NCBI RefSeq assembly: GCF_016623465.1
Contig: NZ_JAEDAJ010000009.1
Coordinates: 62,001-126,000, forward strand
Direction of reading: 5' to 3'
DNA from: Brachybacterium halotolerans
Lineage (GTDB): Bacteria > Actinomycetota > Actinomycetes > Actinomycetales > Dermabacteraceae
DNA length: 64,000 nucleotides
Position 1 is the first letter of the stretch. Each line of letters begins with the position of its first letter. Of this stretch, positions 29,014 to 38,301 are shown in pieces. The translations under genes were made by a program, and so were the position numbers. A model generated the notes under the pieces. That model worked only from the letters and a program-made list of their open reading frames with translations. It did no database searches and was not told the DNA's origin.

Positions 29014-30186
29014 GTGAGCGCTCCCGCACGGCGCGGCTCCAGCACCCGGAGCCGCACCCCACGCCCGACGCCGCGCCCCGTCGCCTATCACGACGACGCG
29101 CCGCGCGAGGGCACGCGCGTCTTCTCCGACGGCTCCGTCGCTCCCGTGCTGCGCACGTCCTTCGACGTCAGCGCCTACACCATCGAGGTGCCCGGGAAGA
29201 TCGACGTCGACGCCGAGGAGATCGCGCGCACCGCCCGGGAGCTCACCGCGGATCCGCACGGCATCGAGGCCCGCGACCTCGAGGACCTGCGACGCGACCT
29301 GGCGTTCCTCCACTCCCTGGAGTCCACCGCGCTCACCGAGACCCGCACGATGTACAGCTCGTGGACGTCGAACGAGGCCCGCATCACCGCGTTCCTGGCC
29401 AGCTGGCTGTGGGAGCGCCACTGGTGGGCGCACGCCCTCCAGGAGATCGTCGAGGCCCTGCCCGGCGGCGGGCACGACGCCGACCGGCTCCACCTCCCGC
29501 ATCCGCGCCTTCCGCATCCTCATCTCCCGCACGCCGCCGCCGCGCTGCGCCACGCGTACGTCGAGCGCGCGCTGCCGATCGTCGGCCCGGGATGGACCTG
29601 GCTGGCCGGCGAGAAGGTCACCGCCGGCCACATGGCGCGCATGGCGATCCAGGAGGGCGGGCTGCGGGCGGCCGTCGACGCCCTCCTCCCCCGCGCCGCG
29701 CAGGTGCCCGAAGCGGGCCGCGTGCTCGGCGAGCTGCTCGCGCGCCGCACCCGCACCATGGAGTTCTTCCGCCTCGAGGCGATCGCCCGGATCACGCGCT
29801 CGCGCGGCGAGGCGATCGCCGCCCGCGCGGTCCTCGCCGTCGGCGGCGACCCGATGCGGCCGGCCGGACAGCACCTGCCGGGCGAGGAGACGGTGCTCCC
29901 CAGCATCTTCCGGCGCGCCTCCGACCGCGCCGCCCTGCGCTCGGCCCGCTTCGAGATCACGCGCCTGCTCCCCGGGCCCGACCTGCACGGTCTGCTCGGC
30001 CCGGCCCGCGCGATCCGTCGCGGCGTCGGACGCGCCGGCGGCGTCGTCGCCCACGCGGGCGGTGTCGTGGCGCAGGCGGGCGGCGCCGTCGCCCACGCGG
30101 GCGGTGCCGTGGCGCAGAAGGGCGCCGGGATCGTGCAGCAGGGCGTCGGACGAGCGGACGGAGGAGCCGATGGCATTCGACCTTGA
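29014..30186 (+). CDS. Ferritin-like/desaturase-like protein, probably degenerate, with C-terminal heptad repeats
   Basis: A 390-aa protein that resembles the next gene product. The segment SLESTALTETRTMYSSWTSNEARI and SWLWERHWWAHAL (about 101-141) can be aligned by eye to the helix pair of the neighbour, but the ExxH of the neighbour becomes RxxW here, so the diiron site looks incomplete. Residues 341-368 are four 7-residue repeats AGG(V/A)VA(H/Q), giving a short helix or beta arch of Ala/Val faces. AGGAGG lies 11 nt upstream of GTG 29014. The 3' end overlaps the next gene by 17 nt. Function unknown; a partner subunit for the neighbour is my inference. Confidence 0.65.
   Translation: MSAPARRGSSTRSRTPRPTPRPVAYHDDAPREGTRVFSDGSVAPVLRTSFDVSAYTIEVPGKIDVDAEEIARTARELTADPHGIEARDLEDLRRDLAFLHSLESTALTETRTMYSSWTSNEARITAFLASWLWERHWWAHALQEIVEALPGGGHDADRLHLPHPRLPHPHLPHAAAALRHAYVERALPIVGPGWTWLAGEKVTAGHMARMAIQEGGLRAAVDALLPRAAQVPEAGRVLGELLARRTRTMEFFRLEAIARITRSRGEAIAARAVLAVGGDPMRPAGQHLPGEETVLPSIFRRASDRAALRSARFEITRLLPGPDLHGLLGPARAIRRGVGRAGGVVAHAGGVVAQAGGAVAHAGGAVAQKGAGIVQQGVGRADGGADGIRP
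30034..30117 (+). repeat. Four 21-bp repeats encoding AGGxVAx heptads
   Basis: Four tandem 21-bp units, alternating exactly between units ending CAC (His) and CAG (Gln). They code for residues 341-368 of the ferritin-like protein. Confidence 0.7.
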
Positions 30187-30958
30187 GAAGTTCGCGGAGA
30201 CCTCCGAGCCCGTGGGCTGGGACGACCTCGACTTCGACACCTTCGAGACCCAACCGCTGGACGAGCCCACCCTGCGCTCCCTGCGCTACATGTGCGACGT
30301 CGAGTACCACACCTCCTGCTACCTGCGGGACATGCTGGTCACGCCCTCGCGGCGCGAGCACGCCACCGGCGGCTTCATGACCGTGTGGAACCGCGAGGAG
30401 TTCTGGCACGGCGAGGCCCTCGCCGCCGTCCTCCAGCGCCACGGGATCGTCGTCGACTACGACGAGCTGAAGTCCAAGCGCGTGAAGCTGGGCTGGACCC
30501 AGGCGCTCAGCCCCCTCAAGCAGTCCGCGCTCTCCAACCTCGCGGGCACCGACTTCGTGGCCGTGCACATGACCTGGGGCGCCGCGAACGAGCTCTCGGC
30601 CGTCGCCGCCTACCGTCGGCTCTCCGCGATGACCGACCACCCCGCGCTCAGTCCCCTGCTCAAGCGCATCGCCCAGCAGGAGACCCGGCACGTCGCCTTC
30701 TACACCACGCAGGGCCGCGAGCGCCTCGAGGCCTCCAAGAAGGCGCGCCTGGCCACCCGCCTGGCGCTCTCGAAGGCGTGGCGGCCCGTCGGCTCCGGCG
30801 TCATGAGCGACGACGAGGTCGTGCACGTCATGGGCCACCTCTTCGGCGGCCGCGGCGAGGAGCTCGACGCCCTCGACAAGAAGATCCAGAAGCTGCCGGG
30901 CCTCGACGACCTCACCATCTTCCGCAACGCCTTCGGACGGATGGGCATCGCCATCTGA
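30170..30958 (+). CDS. Ferritin-like diiron protein (acyl-ACP desaturase-like)
   Basis: A 262-aa helical protein with a full set of diiron ligands in order: E45, E77xxH80 (EFWH), E141 (ANELSAV) and E171xxH174 (ETRH). This E, ExxH, E, ExxH pattern is that of the ferritin/acyl-ACP desaturase/ribonucleotide reductase superfamily. It would activate oxygen for oxidation of an unknown, perhaps lipid-linked substrate. ATG 30170 has a strong GGAGGAG ribosome binding site 5 nt upstream and lies inside the end of the preceding gene, so translation is coupled. A long palindrome follows the operon. Confidence 0.83.
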   Translation: MAFDLEKFAETSEPVGWDDLDFDTFETQPLDEPTLRSLRYMCDVEYHTSCYLRDMLVTPSRREHATGGFMTVWNREEFWHGEALAAVLQRHGIVVDYDELKSKRVKLGWTQALSPLKQSALSNLAGTDFVAVHMTWGAANELSAVAAYRRLSAMTDHPALSPLLKRIAQQETRHVAFYTTQGRERLEASKKARLATRLALSKAWRPVGSGVMSDDEVVHVMGHLFGGRGEELDALDKKIQKLPGLDDLTIFRNAFGRMGIAI

Positions 30959-31360
30959 CCGGTGGCGGGCCCGCGGGAGGGTCCGGTCGCCGCAGGATCG
31001 CCGCAAGGGTCCGCCGCTGCTGGCTGGGGAGTCGTCATGGTCTGCGCCGAGCGCGGTCGGTGCGCAACATGGTCGGCGGCCGGCATGGTCGGCGGGCGTC
31101 ATGGAGCGGCGTATGCGGGACATCTCTGCCGTATATGGCAGAGACGTCCCGCATATACCGGTCGGTGACAGCAATGCGATGAGGCGCACCTCGGATGAAC
31201 CCGGTACGCGACTGTGCGGCTGTGCGCTGCTCGCGCCGCTGTCCGCTGGCCGCTCGCCGCTCGCCGCTCGCCGCGGGCCGTCGGTCCTCCCCATACCCGC
31301 TTGGTCCACATTCGGGCTGTCCCACCCCCACACCCGGGACGCAGCTGGTGGCATCGCCCC
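30959..31360. other. 402-nt intergenic region
   Basis: Contains the 23-bp-arm palindrome at 31108-31159 and a GCCGCTCG/CGCCGCTCG-rich low-complexity patch at about 31240-31275. No gene seen before the ATG at 31361. Confidence 0.5.
31108..31159. terminator. Imperfect 23-bp palindrome, related to 32419-32478
   Basis: Arms 31108-31130 and 31137-31159 pair at 20 of 23 positions around the loop GTATAT. Core words GTATGCGGG and CTCTGCC are shared with the palindrome on the other side of the nuclease gene. It also follows the ferritin-like operon and may terminate it. Confidence 0.65.
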
Positions 31361-32281
31361 ATGAAGATCCCCGGAGTCATCCGCAAGCCCCGGCTCCCGA
31401 GCATCGAGCCGGACCCGAACGTCCGGCGTCGACTGCTGCGCGACGGCGCCATGCGCTCCGCGGGCCAGTGGTACGTGACGCCCGAGGCACCGGACGACCT
31501 CGTCGCGCTGCTCGAGATGGACATGCGTCCCACCTGCCTGGACGCGGCCGCGCTGCATGGCCTCTGGGTCCCCGTCGGGCACGGCGTCCATGCGTTCTGC
31601 CCGCGGGTCACGTCGGCTCCCGCACCCCCGCCGATGTTGACGCAGATCCGCCGCAGGATCGATCCGAGGACCGGGCGACTCGCCCCACCTCCGCAGCCCG
31701 GACCCGGCGAACCCCGGCGCCCGCTGGAGCCGCTGATCCTGCACCGGCCCAGCCTGCGCACCTGGCCGGACGACGACCCGGTCCCTGACATCACCCTCAC
31801 GCTCGAGCACGCGGCCCGATGCCTGACGACCCTCGACGTCGCCATCCTCATCGAGTCCGCGCTCAACAAGGACGTGCTCAGCCGGCGACAGCTCGACGAC
31901 CTTCTGGCCGGACTCCCCCGCAAGAAGAGCGCGTCGCTCGGCCGGGTCCGCTCGGACGCCCAGTCCGGCACCGAGACGGCTGTGCGCTGGTGGCTCGAGC
32001 AGCGCCGCGTGCCCGTCCGCACGCAGGTGCGCGTGCTGCCCGGGATACGCGTCGACATCCTCATCGGCACGAATTGGCTGAACGAGTGCGACAGCAAACG
32101 TCTCCACGACGACCCCGAGCAGTACCACGAGGATCGTCGGCGCGACCTGACCCTCGCCGCTCTCGGCTACAAGGTCACGCGGCTGACCTGGGAGCAGGTG
32201 TTCCTCACCTGGGACAGGACCCCTGCCGTGCTCATGACGCTTCTCCAGCGCCGCCTGCACCGCAGGGCCCTGCCGGTGTGA
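31361..32281 (+). CDS. DUF559-type endonuclease-domain protein
   Basis: A 306-aa protein with a C-terminal PD-(D/E)xK-like (DUF559/Vsr-related) domain: E205 in the first helix, D232 in VDILIG and E242-C-D244 in WLNECDS, then EDRRRDLTLAALGYKVTRLTWEQV, the usual end of this family. The N-terminal half resembles the AbiEi-type/winged-helix region often found in actinobacterial homologues, which are commonly annotated as type IV antitoxin-like or endonuclease-domain proteins. No toxin gene is adjacent. The gene is bracketed by two related palindromes. Codon use is like that of its neighbours. Activity is unproven. Confidence 0.75.
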   Translation: MKIPGVIRKPRLPSIEPDPNVRRRLLRDGAMRSAGQWYVTPEAPDDLVALLEMDMRPTCLDAAALHGLWVPVGHGVHAFCPRVTSAPAPPPMLTQIRRRIDPRTGRLAPPPQPGPGEPRRPLEPLILHRPSLRTWPDDDPVPDITLTLEHAARCLTTLDVAILIESALNKDVLSRRQLDDLLAGLPRKKSASLGRVRSDAQSGTETAVRWWLEQRRVPVRTQVRVLPGIRVDILIGTNWLNECDSKRLHDDPEQYHEDRRRDLTLAALGYKVTRLTWEQVFLTWDRTPAVLMTLLQRRLHRRALPV

Positions 32282-32418
32282 CGGACAGGTTCGCGCTCGA
32301 CCGAGCTGTGCGGGGGCCCGCACCTCGGCCAGGCCGCGTCCCCGTCAGGGCCCGGCGAAGACAGCGCACGGCTGCGTCACGGCCCCGGCTGCGACAGCGC
32401 GGCGGGGCGGGTGTCGTG

Positions 32419-32478
32419 GAACGGCGTATGCGGGCTCTCTCTGCCATATTTGGCAGAGAGAGCCCGCATACGCCGTTC
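32419..32478. terminator. Perfect 28-bp palindrome downstream of the nuclease gene
   Basis: Arms 32419-32446 and 32451-32478 are exact complements around the loop TATT. It sits between two convergent genes and could terminate both. It shares GGCGTATGCGGG and CTCTGCC with the palindrome at 31108-31159. Confidence 0.7.
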
Positions 32479-32560
32479 GCCGACATCGACGAATCCACAG
32501 CAGTCGACCCGCACCCGCCCCGCGGCGGGACCGGCCGCCTCGCGGCGGGGCCTTCCCCGC

Positions 32561-35500
32561 TCAGCGGCGGAAGCGGTTCCGGATCCTGCGCAGCGGACCG
32601 CCGCGTCCCGACGAGCGTCGGGCTCCGGCCGACCCGGACTCCGCGCGACTCTCATCTGCGCCGCCACGGCCGGCGGCGTGCGCACCGCTCTCCCCTGAGG
32701 GAGCCGTGTGCGCGGGGCCGGGAGCCCGGTGCGAGTTGGCCGAGGTGTCGGAACCGGACGACGCGTCGGCGCTCGGTGAGGCACCGTCGGCCGCCCCCTC
32801 CGGCGATGTGCCGTCGGCCGCCCCCTCCGTCGCGGCGCCGGCGGGCGCCTCGGCCGGCGAGGCCGGGGAGACCGGCGCAGATGCCGAGCCCGCTGCCGCC
32901 GGGACGCCGGCCGACCGAGTGGACGCCGCCGGGGCCGAGGCCGCAGTATCGGCCGCCGCCCCAGGATCATCCGTCGCGGTGCCCGGCCCGGACGACGGGG
33001 ACTCAGGACCCGACGAGCCCGACGCCGCTTCCGACGCCGTTTCCGCCGCCGTGCCCGACGCCGCGGGCGCAGACGCCGCGGGCGCACCCGCCGCGCCCGT
33101 CGTCGCGCCCGACGCCGCGGGCGCAGCCGCCGCGGCCGCCGCGCGCTCGCCGAGCTCCTTGGACTGCGCCTCGCGCTTGGCCTGGGCGTCGCGCTCCGCC
33201 GTCTCGCGACGATCGCGCTCGGCGGCCTCGCGACGCAGGCGGCGACGCTCGCCCGGGCCCTCGGTGAGCCGGTAGAGCACCGGCACGATCACCAGGGTGA
33301 GCAGGGTCGACGTGACCAGGCCGCCGATCACGACCACGGCCAGCGGCTGGGAGATGAAGCCGCCCTTGCCGGTGATGCCGAAGGCCATCGGCAGCAGCGC
33401 GAAGATCGTCGCCGCCGCGGTCATGAGGATCGGCCGCAGACGCTTGGCGGCGCCCACATGGATCGCCTCGTCCAGGGCCATGCCCCCGCGCCGGTACTGG
33501 TTGACCAGGTCGATGAGCACGATCGCGTTGGTGACCACGATGCCGACCAGCATCAGCAGGCCGATCATCGAGGGCAGCCCCAGCGGGACGCCGGTGAGGA
33601 CCAGCAGACCCAGCGCGCCGGTCGCCGCGAACGGGATCGACACCAGCAGCACGAGCGGCTGCACGAGGGACTTGAAGATCCACACCAGCAGCACGTACAC
33701 CAGCAGGATCGCCGCGAGCATCGCGATGCCCAGCTGGCCGAACGTCTCGTCGATGTCCGAGGCCGAGCCGCCGAGCGATGCCTTCACACCGCTGGGCAGG
33801 TCCGCGTCGTCGATCGCCTTCTGCGCCGCCTGGGAGACCGCGCCGACGTTGTCGCTCGAGGTCGGGGCGAGGGAGACGGTGACCGTCTCGACGTTGTCCT
33901 GCGTCGCGATCGAAGGCCGGGACTCCTCCTCGCTGACCTTCGCGACGTCCGTGAGCGGCAGGCCCTCGGCGAGGTCGAGGTCCTTGAGCTTCTTGAGCGT
34001 GGTGACGTCGTCCTTCTGCTCGACGTAGATGTCGAGGTCCTCGTCGTCCAGGGTGATGGTGCCGACGGAGCCGGGGTTCATCTTCTGGGCGACCAGGCCG
34101 ACGACGGTCTGCTCGGTGAGGCCCTTCTCGGCGGCCTTCTTGCGGTCGACGGTCACCACGGCGGTGGGCTGGTCGCCCTCGAGGTCGCTCGTGACCTCCT
34201 TGACGCCGCTGGGGGCCGGGTCGAGCTGGTCGAGGATGGCGTCGTTCGCCTTCTTGCGGTCCTCGGCCGTGGGCCCCGTGATCTGGATGTCCACGGTGCT
34301 GGAGCCGGTCGCCGACGTCATGTCGGCCGCCTCAACGTCCCCGGGGTCGGGGAGGTCCTGCAGGGTTCGGACCATCTTCGTCTGCAGCGCCTGCTGGTCG
34401 GAGTCGGCGTCGGTGGTGATCGAGAAGCTGATCTCGTTCTCCCCGCCGCCTCCGGCGCTGAAGCCGCCGCCGTCGCCGCCGGAGCCGATCGTGGTCTGCA
34501 CGGTCTCGACGCCGTCGAGATCCATGAGGGCCTTCTCGGAGTCCTTCGCCTTCTTCGAGGAGTCCGCCAGGCTCGTCCCGGCGGGGAGGGTCTGGGTGAT
34601 CGAGGCGATGTTCTGCCCGGTGTCGCCGAGGAAGTTGATCTTCAGCAGCGGCGTGAGGAACACGGTGCCCACGAGCACGAGGATCGCGACGGCGACCGTG
34701 ATCAGGCGCCGCGGCAGCGAGTTCAGGGTCAGGCGCAGCACGGGCGCGTAGAGGCGGTGGAGCCAGGTGCGCTCCTCGCGCGCCTCGGCGGCCTCGCGCA
34801 CCTTCGCGACCTGCGCCTCGTCGTCCGGATCATCCGGCACCGGCTGCTTCTTGGGCGGGCGCAGGAACCAGTACGCGAGCACCGGAACGATCGTGAGCGC
34901 GACCAGCAGCGAGCTGAGCATCGCGATCGCGACGGTGAGGGCGAACGGTCGGAACAGCTCCCCGGCCATGCCGGCGACGATCGCGATCGGCAGGAACACC
35001 ACCACGGTCGCGAGCGTCGAGGCGGTGATCGCGCCCGCGACCTCCTTGACCGCGTCCAGGATCGCCCGTCTGCGGGTCTTGCCGTAGGCCAGGTGTCTGG
35101 TGATGTTCTCGATGACCACGATCGAGTCGTCGACCACGCGGCCGATGGAGATCGTGAGCGCCGCCAGGGTCAGCATGTTCAGCGTGTAGCCCGTGACGAG
35201 CATGCCGATGAACGCGATGAGCAGCGAGGTCGGGATCGAGATCGCGGTGACGAGCGTCGGACGCAGGCGCCGCAGGAACAGCAGGATCACGCCGACGGCC
35301 ATGACCAGGCCCAGCAGACCCTCCTCGGCGAGGGACACGATCGACTCGCGGATGAACGGCGCCTGGTCGAAGACCACGTCGCTCTTCGCGTCGCCGCCGA
35401 CCTCGGCCAGAGTGCTGTCGAGCTTGGAGGAGACATCCTTGGAGATGTCCACGACGTTGCCGTCCGAGGTCGCGGTCACCATCATCACGAGCGACTCGCG

Positions 35501-36559
35501 GCCGTTGGTGCGGGAGATCGAGGTGGGATCCTCGGTGGTCTCCTCGACCTTCGCGACGTCGCCCAGGGTGCTGACCTCCTGCTGACCCTGCTGGCCAGCC
35601 TGGCCCGACTGGCCCTGCTGACCCGACTGGTCCTGGCCCGACTGGCCCTGGTCGGTCGCGGCGCCCTGGTCGGCGCCCGCCTGGCCCTGCTGGCCCGCCT
35701 GACCCTGCTGACCCGACTGGCCTGCGGCGTCGCCGCCGGACGCGCCGTCGCTCGACCCGTCGGCCGATCCGCCGGAGGCACCGGAGGAGTCCGACGAGCC
35801 GGAGGACGCACCCTGCGAACTGGGCATGACGACCATGCCCTTGAGGTCGTCGATGCTGGTCATCTCGTGGCCGATGACCACGTCGATGCTCTGCTTCTTG
35901 TCGGTCACGCTGCCGCCGGGCAGGGAGAGGCCGTTCGCGTCGAGCGCCGTGGAGATGTCGTCGTCGGTGAGGCCGCGCTTCTTCATCTCGTCCTCGTCGG
36001 GCGTGATGCGCACGATCTTCTCGGGCGCACCGATCACCGCGACGGAGGAGACGCCGTCCACGCGCTCGAGCTCCGGGGTGACGCTCGTGTCGAGGCGGTC
36101 GGCGAGCTCGGACGGGTTCAGATCGGAGGAGACCGACAGCACCACGGCCGGCAGATCGCTCGTGCCGCCGGAGATGACCTGCGGGTCCGCGCCCTCGGGC
36201 AGCTGGTCGTCGATGCGCCCGATCGCGGCGTCGACCTGGTTGGTCGCGCGTGCGGTGTCGGTGCCGTAGGTGAGCTCGACGGTCACCACCGAGACGCCCG
36301 CCTGGGAGGACGACGAGGTCTTCTCGACGTCCTCGATGCCGGTGACCGCCTGTTCGACGGGCTTGCTGATCTGCTTCTGCACCTGCTCCGAGGAGGCCCC
36401 CGGCGAGGTGGTCATCACCTGGATCTGCGGGAGCGAGACGGAGGGGATCAGCTCCTGACGCATGGTCGTCATCGCGAAGATCCCGATGATCGAGACGGCG
36501 ATGCAGACCAGCGCGATGAACGGGCGATTGTTCAGGCTGAGCTTGGCCAGACGGTTCAT
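32561..36559 (-). CDS. RND-superfamily efflux permease with Gln/Gly-rich insert and long disordered tail
   Basis: Proton-driven exporter of the AcrB/HAE1-like RND group (1332 aa). Helix 4 carries the proton-relay pair in GRVVDDSIVVIENI, and two sets of helices flank large extracytoplasmic loops as expected. ATG 36559 follows AGGAGACTC. Two oddities: residues 248-328 of the first loop are a Ser/Gly- then Gln/Gly-rich insertion (SGQQGQAGQQGQAG and so on), and residues about 1101-1332 are a charged then Ala/Ser/Pro-rich cytoplasmic tail ending in basic residues. No adaptor (membrane fusion) protein gene adjoins, as usual for monoderm bacteria. Substrate unknown. Confidence 0.92.
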   Translation of the reverse strand: MNRLAKLSLNNRPFIALVCIAVSIIGIFAMTTMRQELIPSVSLPQIQVMTTSPGASSEQVQKQISKPVEQAVTGIEDVEKTSSSSQAGVSVVTVELTYGTDTARATNQVDAAIGRIDDQLPEGADPQVISGGTSDLPAVVLSVSSDLNPSELADRLDTSVTPELERVDGVSSVAVIGAPEKIVRITPDEDEMKKRGLTDDDISTALDANGLSLPGGSVTDKKQSIDVVIGHEMTSIDDLKGMVVMPSSQGASSGSSDSSGASGGSADGSSDGASGGDAAGQSGQQGQAGQQGQAGADQGAATDQGQSGQDQSGQQGQSGQAGQQGQQEVSTLGDVAKVEETTEDPTSISRTNGRESLVMMVTATSDGNVVDISKDVSSKLDSTLAEVGGDAKSDVVFDQAPFIRESIVSLAEEGLLGLVMAVGVILLFLRRLRPTLVTAISIPTSLLIAFIGMLVTGYTLNMLTLAALTISIGRVVDDSIVVIENITRHLAYGKTRRRAILDAVKEVAGAITASTLATVVVFLPIAIVAGMAGELFRPFALTVAIAMLSSLLVALTIVPVLAYWFLRPPKKQPVPDDPDDEAQVAKVREAAEAREERTWLHRLYAPVLRLTLNSLPRRLITVAVAILVLVGTVFLTPLLKINFLGDTGQNIASITQTLPAGTSLADSSKKAKDSEKALMDLDGVETVQTTIGSGGDGGGFSAGGGGENEISFSITTDADSDQQALQTKMVRTLQDLPDPGDVEAADMTSATGSSTVDIQITGPTAEDRKKANDAILDQLDPAPSGVKEVTSDLEGDQPTAVVTVDRKKAAEKGLTEQTVVGLVAQKMNPGSVGTITLDDEDLDIYVEQKDDVTTLKKLKDLDLAEGLPLTDVAKVSEEESRPSIATQDNVETVTVSLAPTSSDNVGAVSQAAQKAIDDADLPSGVKASLGGSASDIDETFGQLGIAMLAAILLVYVLLVWIFKSLVQPLVLLVSIPFAATGALGLLVLTGVPLGLPSMIGLLMLVGIVVTNAIVLIDLVNQYRRGGMALDEAIHVGAAKRLRPILMTAAATIFALLPMAFGITGKGGFISQPLAVVVIGGLVTSTLLTLVIVPVLYRLTEGPGERRRLRREAAERDRRETAERDAQAKREAQSKELGERAAAAAAAPAASGATTGAAGAPAASAPAASGTAAETASEAASGSSGPESPSSGPGTATDDPGAAADTAASAPAASTRSAGVPAAAGSASAPVSPASPAEAPAGAATEGAADGTSPEGAADGASPSADASSGSDTSANSHRAPGPAHTAPSGESGAHAAGRGGADESRAESGSAGARRSSGRGGPLRRIRNRFRR

Positions 36560-36729
36560 GAGTCTCCTGGGCCGATGGGCCGGGACGGTCGAGCGGGGCG
36601 TGCGGACTCGGCCGACGCGAGGCGGCCATCCTCGGGCATTCGACCACAGGTCGGACATCCCGAGCATCAGCCGAAGGTCGGAGCATCGGGTGTGATCCGC
36701 GCCCCGCCCGTCGACCCTGCGGCCCCTGG

Positions 36730-38240: not shown

Positions 38241-38301
38241 GACGATGACCAGGATCTATGACAGGAACGGGCCGTTCCTGTCATAGATCCTGGTCATCGT
38301 C
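38241..38301. terminator. Perfect 30-bp palindrome between convergent genes
   Basis: Arms 38241-38270 and 38272-38301 are exact complements about a single G. In the cell a small loop would form at the GGGCC centre. It could terminate both the MATE gene and the membrane protein gene. Confidence 0.7.

Follow-up and report, generated by a model that had tools for sequence, protein, structure and literature searches.

A nuclease gene in a 64-kb stretch of Brachybacterium DNA (the window, by which we mean the whole stretch analysed) lies between two copies of a long palindrome whose relatives are dispersed through the same genome. With a little more confidence than doubt, we propose that this nuclease forms one co-evolving genetic system with a private family of long DNA elements of two-fold symmetry, similar to REP/RAYT and with homing-type chemistry. 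The host genome (3.85 Mb, 24 contigs) is called G000 and other G numbers designate further Brachybacterium genomes, 38 in all; a position on contig C24 minus 62000 gives the window position. The locus consists of the following features.

30170..30958, + strand: flanking gene, a conserved neighbour outside the cassette, without Pfam match, which we take to be ferritin-like
31097..31170, no strand: left 74-bp palindrome, family copy (G000:C24:93097-93170)
31361..32281, + strand: nuclease gene, 306 aa, ATG at 31361 and stop at 32281, with an AbiEi-like N-terminal region and a Vsr-fold C-terminal domain
31367..31960, + strand: AbiEi-like part, residues ~3-200 (AbiEi 6y8q: Z 6.1, 162 residues aligned, rmsd 5.1)
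31958..32263, + strand: Vsr-like nuclease domain, residues ~200-301, homing-endonuclease-like
32412..32485, no strand: right 74-bp palindrome, family copy (G000:C24:94412-94485)
32561..36667, - strand: flanking AcrB-type gene (PF00873), a conserved neighbour outside the cassette

Both palindromes described in the initial annotation were recovered at the positions it gave. The right one is a perfect 28-bp inverted repeat (32419-32446 with 32451-32478) within 35-bp arms that are 94 % complementary, and the left one pairs at 20 of 23 positions (31108-31130 with 31137-31159) within 36-bp arms (81 %). They rank first and third in a list of 22 inverted repeats from the 64-kb window, and a two-fold symmetry scan of the window reaches at least 24 of 33 matches at these two places only. 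The core CTCTGCCNTATNTGGCAGAG, allowing up to three mismatches, has four strand matches in the window, all within the two palindromes, for 0.06 expected; none of 100 shuffled windows contained four or more. A further perfect inverted repeat, with 30-bp arms and a 1-nt spacer, lies at 38241-38301 just 3' of a MATE gene, and its sequence is unlike the 74-bp family.

The AlphaFold model of the bracketed protein has a mean pLDDT of 85.4. Over its last ~100 residues it is most similar, among solved folds, to the homing endonuclease I-Bth0305I (3r3p: Z 12.0, 96 residues, rmsd 3.0), and the same residues also match Vsr (1cw0 with Z 10.2, another Vsr with 9.9) and TnsA (Z 6.3). The best Foldseek match is again I-Bth0305I, at an E value of just 8.3e-3, so that the assignment of the fold depends mostly on the second aligner. 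The gene had been labelled DUF559-type, which is roughly right because the protein scores higher with PF18741 (MTES_1575 REase; 28.8 bits, cut-off 38.2) than with DUF559 (PF04480; 13.9 bits, cut-off 20.6), both scores being below their cut-offs; the homologue L086 passes that of PF18741 with 39.6 bits. The PF18741 domain has been described as a Vsr-family nuclease (PMC3710099). Residues E205, D232, E242, D244, H249 and D258 are invariant across 27 aligned Brachybacterium nuclease sequences. Translation could alternatively start at an in-frame GTG at 31214. A Pfam scan of the adjacent genes, two without Pfam match, one AcrB-type and one MATE, gave no AbiEii toxin, and no second gene is called inside the window bracket. 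We rejected an anti-phage system as a candidate: PADLOC returned nothing for the window protein or for L067, and a single weak 'homing endonuclease' match (E 0.006) for L126.

Relatives of the nuclease are present in 103 of 248 genomes and 36 of 85 genera of the order sampled, Brachybacterium included, and 35 of the 38 Brachybacterium genomes carry a homologue (E 1e-6). A symmetry scan with fixed arms failed to pick up imperfect repeats in other genera and was therefore replaced by a comparison of the 650 bp upstream with the 650 bp downstream at 83 distinct nuclease loci (four dropped for short flanks), with a threshold of 21.55 corresponding to the 99th percentile of 996 cross-locus control pairs. 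Left-right similarity exceeds this threshold at 47 of the 83 loci (32/49 in Brachybacterium, 15/34 in other genera of the order). When loci are grouped by their outer flanks using single linkage into 33 site clusters, 22 clusters pass (10/12 in Brachybacterium, 12/21 outside). None of the 28 ferritin-like control loci passes (30 minus two dropped for length), and among the 44 window genes the nuclease alone does, with 0/43 for the others.

The remaining 36 of 83 nuclease loci have no significant left-right similarity. The cassette of G012 (L061) is among the loci below threshold, at 18.0, though both of its palindromes are plain, and some loci pass by a narrow margin, such as L230 (22.0), L080 (22.5), L064 (23.5) and L242 (24.5). 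The bracketing repeats vary in sequence from locus to locus, and the left and right copies within one locus agree. At some loci (L217, L218, L242, L245) the repeats are non-palindromic. At L098 a long G run lies upstream of the nuclease.

The initial annotation had proposed counting the palindromes across the genome. Scanning G000 with the shared core at up to three mismatches gives 20 places, the window pair included, and these form a family of near-perfect 74-bp palindromes. A covariance model built from the 20 copies recovers all of them on both strands with E values of at most 1.5e-8, and adds three matches at E 0.16-1.3. Nineteen copies are intergenic and the remaining one (L012) falls within a doubtful called frame; 11 copies lie between tandem genes, eight between convergent genes and none between divergent genes. 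For comparison, window spacers of at least 120 bp comprise ten tandem, six divergent and three convergent. In one copy (L009, G000:C2, ~76218) the element is broken by a run of N and G/C-rich sequence and is intact in G012; the interruption is probably an assembly problem at the hairpin.

Symmetry as a function of distance from the dyad is similar in four sets of copies (20 from G000, 12 from G005, nine from G034 and ten of a second family described below). A central AT pair is symmetric in 95-100 % of copies and the arms extend over ~27 bp. A less symmetric 6-nt spacer follows (20-60 % at most positions, with maxima of 90 % in the second family and 80 % in G000), and beyond it symmetry rises again at the outermost ends, where the terminal triplet, GTC..GAC or, in G005, GGC..GCC, is 90-100 % symmetric. 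These four sets came from searches favouring symmetric cores; in 42 bracketing palindromes chosen without regard to their centres the central pair is symmetric in 80 % and the terminal triplet in 66-78 %. The ends of the elements read NGTC/GACN in the window family, GGGC/GCCC in G005 and TGCA/TGCA in others.

The two arms also change together. Within the G000 family 45 cells are altered on both sides against 23.4 in shuffles (0/500), while two of the five covariation measures are weak (pairs changed on both sides, 13/500 shuffles; further pair types, 52/500). Between G000 and G012, 19 orthologous elements have changes on both arms at 20 positions, of which 14 remain complementary where 4.9 are expected (0/5000 shuffles), and 68 positions are altered on a single arm. 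Neutral template correction can also maintain the symmetry of palindromes.

The simpler reading offered by the initial annotation was that the palindromes are terminators. In a wider form, the elements would be intergenic terminators or RNA-stabilising hairpins of a repeat family and the nuclease would be bracketed by chance or be a passenger. The position of the copies downstream of genes is as this predicts, every copy can fold back, and in G034 the three positions beside the central pair are asymmetric (11-33 % symmetric) as in a hairpin loop. However, a T-rich tail (five T in eight) is found on either strand in 0/20 G000 copies, and no intrinsic terminator was found in window positions 30900-32700. 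A hairpin has no need of a symmetric terminal triplet past a weak spacer, matching flanks would not be expected at the nuclease alone of 44 window genes, and homologues are bracketed by quite different sequences. We therefore consider the terminator reading improbable. Known RNA families gave two matches, both to microRNA families below their gathering scores, which we take as chance matches to a hairpin.

Three typed cores were sought in the 38 genomes at up to three mismatches. The G005 core has 16 copies in G005 and is present in 0/37 others; the window core has ten copies in G000, eight in G012 and one in G034 (0/35 others); the second-family core has four, five and three copies in G000, G012 and G034, respectively (0/35 others). 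This second family is also made of 74-bp palindromes, with the core GAGGAGCCGTGGCGATAT, and is similar to the palindromes around a nuclease that G000 lacks at the corresponding, empty site. Its G000 copies, four by pattern, are as follows.

G000:C23:125906, C20:29622, C12:440352 and C18:201334: second-family copies (GAGGAGCCGTGGCGATAT), three of them in L262-L264

For 18 nucleases the bracketing palindromes, taken from one side in three cases, served as references for the dispersed elements. The best match is to the bracketing pair of the own or sister genome for 18/18 elements of G000 and for 5/5 compared in G012 (18 fetched), and to the own nuclease's palindromes for 12/12 compared in G005 (three more in L054 left out). 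In G010, G004 and G015 the one dispersed element compared in each matches its own, the covariance model finding ~4 or 5 per genome. In G034 six of ten are best with their own, L195 and L197 are near ties with G000 or G012, and L148 and L059 have their best match elsewhere. Copies in G025 (0/3) and G023 (0/1) are unmatched to the palindromes of the local nuclease; we infer that these, and the second family of G000, are orphans of lost nucleases. The palindromes track the nuclease gene in that dispersed copies usually carry the core of the local nuclease's pair.

The elements occupy old places and may carry new cores. Every one of the 20 G000 sites can be traced to G012, through both flanks for 19 and through one for L025, and has an element there as well. 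No insertion polymorphism of solo copies was found between these two genomes, and the solo copies look old. Nine of the 12 fetched G034 elements sit at G000 sites. Seven solo sites could be aligned between G034 and G000, and at six of them G034 has a different core (CCGTGC type), L018/L059 being the sole site where G034 has a G000-type core. Two of 13 fetched G005 solo loci share a G000 site (1.5-kb flanks), each with another core.

The nuclease itself is divergent in the same comparison. Its dS between G000 and G034 is 0.49, where the three nearest genes have values of 0.14, 0.10 and 0.18 and the MATE gene 0.30; between G000 and G012 the nuclease dS is 0.11. Identity with G034 is 90-100 % in the genes on both sides and falls to 22-91 % over ~30900-33200, a stretch that takes in the low-complexity end of the AcrB-type gene as well as the cassette. 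With G012, identity dips in the intergenic parts of this stretch and the nuclease keeps 81-99 %. From the nuclease dS and the local drop in identity in G034, we conclude that the cassette allele was exchanged in one of the two lineages; most of the elements examined elsewhere differ in type between them as well. Such an exchange between G000 and G034 would be compatible with homing-type cutting of gene-less alleles followed by copying-in. Intergenic DNA around the palindromes is much more variable between species than the adjacent genes, as seen in L053 compared with window 30900-33200.

The strongest rival is a reading without cutting. The palindromes would be sites of a regulator or nucleoid organiser bound through the AbiEi-like region, the nuclease domain would serve defence or be little used, and sites and protein would co-evolve by selection, without cutting or conversion. 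An AbiEi-like fold over residues 3-200, the reported binding of AbiEi antitoxins to inverted repeats (PMC7319586), the stable positions of orthologous elements and the site-like symmetry, with its terminal triplet and central AT, are all as expected for binding sites, and concerted core change could come from selection alone. Yet the acidic and histidine nuclease residues are invariant in the 27 Brachybacterium sequences, and 0/20 copies lie between divergent genes, where operators are expected. Moreover, G000 and G034 have different cores at six of the seven aligned sites although their neighbouring genes are separated by a dS of just 0.10-0.18, which is fast for selection acting on separate sites. 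We regard this rival as unlikely, though deserving serious weight.

The nuclease occupies several chromosomal sites. Of 30 loci examined, the AcrB/ferritin-like site holds it in four genomes (G000, G012, G034 and G005). One site cluster comprises 18 loci from 18 genomes: this site is empty in G000, G012, G034 and G006, where 90-106 bp replace ~2 kb, contains in G005 a solo palindrome of G005's own type, and measures 1.47 kb in G022. An empty site in relatives, which the initial annotation had proposed looking for, thus exists for one alternative nuclease site in four species. The G005 copy, at a site with no copy in G000, G012, G034 and G006, is the one case of presence and absence of a solo element. 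No recent transposition was seen among solo copies. The idea of a small cassette therefore holds as regards several alternative sites in the genus, one empty in four species, and not as regards mobility, since the solo copies look old and no movement was seen. The palindromes do follow many unrelated genes, which had been named beforehand as a point against a link with the nuclease; the companion point, a nuclease at one fixed site in all relatives, is not what we find.

These observations bear on a decaying insertion-sequence or MITE-like family, in which the palindromes would be terminal repeats or solo remnants and the nuclease a transposase, with or without a missing partner. Cassettes at several sites with an empty site in four species, TnsA among the fold matches and a second family in G000, G012 and G034 that is similar to the palindromes bracketing a nuclease missing from its site in these genomes would all fit. 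Against this, no target-site duplication was seen, the flanks being too variable to place the element ends, and the window bracket lacks a second called gene. Many species carry homologues at the same sites, and solo copies are common to several species. A transposon origin consequently seems to us a poor prospect.

Carriage by plasmids or phages was also rejected. It is represented by a single plasmid match (Tsukamurella, 35 %, 53 % of the query) and by one 4.9-kb 'Bacteriophage sp.' record, MT839994.1 (L274), which has a nuclease with similar flanks (score 26.0). This record is probably mislabelled bacterial DNA, given its 94-96 % identity with the L064 locus of Brachybacterium paraconglomeratum. 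In G000 a second nuclease homologue (L127, C12:307328-307882) has an internal stop and is bracketed by TGCACTTCGCGTAG-type repeats, which also flank a stop-free homologue in G034 (L123); L127 is probably a decaying paralogous system.

Returning to a nuclease that acts on its own elements, we infer that it binds the palindromes, cuts them and brings about conversion. Dimer binding, cutting and repair-driven conversion are proposed because I-Bth0305I reportedly dimerises on a long target and AbiEi binds inverted repeats (PMC3943268, PMC7319586). A nuclease dimer would bind the 74-bp element: arms and terminal triplet would be recognised by the AbiEi-like part, and the homing-endonuclease-like domain would cut close to the central AT. 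Cut elements would be repaired from other copies and thereby re-typed, resulting in concerted evolution, and repair might occasionally seed or lose a copy. The nuclease gene would persist by moves of the cassette among a few chromosomal sites. By analogy, the nearly 60-bp target of the I-Bth0305I dimer would suit a two-fold element of 74 bp. More tentatively, and with somewhat less than even confidence, we hypothesize that solitary homing-like nucleases keep and rewrite private genome-wide sets of palindromes, that a new allele, on arrival, converts the resident elements to the core it carries, and that such matched sets exist across many actinobacterial genera.

If correct, this system would do the work of REP/RAYT by a second and independent enzymatic means and represent a new route by which short bacterial repeats arise and are homogenised. 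Proteins owning matched palindrome sets would give a function to an orphan family. It is conceivable, as speculation, that this type of enzyme is a candidate for palindrome families reported without one, such as the CGTC REPs (PMC3733652). Matched nuclease-palindrome pairs would provide, as a natural library, long recognition sites with two-fold symmetry, and would make the cause of likeness among dispersed bacterial repeats directly testable.

In the titles and abstract starts of the open-access papers that we searched, DUF559, MTES_1575 or AbiEi nucleases are not tied to bracketing palindromes, and no role was found in these open-access texts for the combination of an AbiEi-like region with a Vsr fold. 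A Vsr-like Caulobacter protein has been tied to cytosine methylation, which may bear on the nuclease family (PMC12907096). With the AbiE toxin-antitoxin system the window protein shares the AbiEi-like N-terminal fold, inverted-repeat binding being known for AbiEi (PMC7319586). Unlike AbiE, it has a fused nuclease and no AbiEii toxin among the adjacent genes scanned.

The closest parallel in organisation is with REP/REPIN-RAYT systems (REPtrons), in which one chromosomal gene is likewise bracketed by a dispersed family of intergenic palindromes, the repeats lie mostly downstream of genes and the association persists for long (PMC3733652, PMC8049555). As in REP/RAYT, the repeats here fall between tandem or convergent genes (19/20 intergenic, 0/20 divergent). 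The likeness to RAYT suggested by the initial annotation thus stands for the bracketing palindromes, the dispersed copies and the tracking of the gene, and fails for the enzyme, which is a Vsr-fold nuclease with an AbiEi-like region and not a Y1 HUH transposase. We ruled out a RAYT origin: the Y1 (HUH) transposase domain PF01797 is present in 0/38 Brachybacterium genomes, with 5/14 control genomes positive, and the fold is Vsr-like. The window element also differs in its length of 74 bp and in having no GTAG tetranucleotide at its end, and its ~20 copies compare with 69-235 REPINs per E. coli genome (PMC8049555).

The CGTC-tagged REPs (Di Nocera 2013) resemble our elements in having CGTC, often TGTC, at one end and in occurring mostly as inverted dimers, and are reported without a dedicated transposase; they differ in being short units with stems of 8-9 bp found mainly in alpha-proteobacteria (PMC3733652). 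For the enzyme, the nearest relatives are the EDxHD homing endonucleases: among solved folds the catalytic domain comes closest to I-Bth0305I (Z 12.0), which reportedly binds a target of nearly 60 bp as a dimer (PMC3943268). Unlike I-Bth0305I, the nuclease described here carries an AbiEi-like DNA-binding region and resides on a bacterial chromosome, where its presumed target both brackets the gene and is dispersed.
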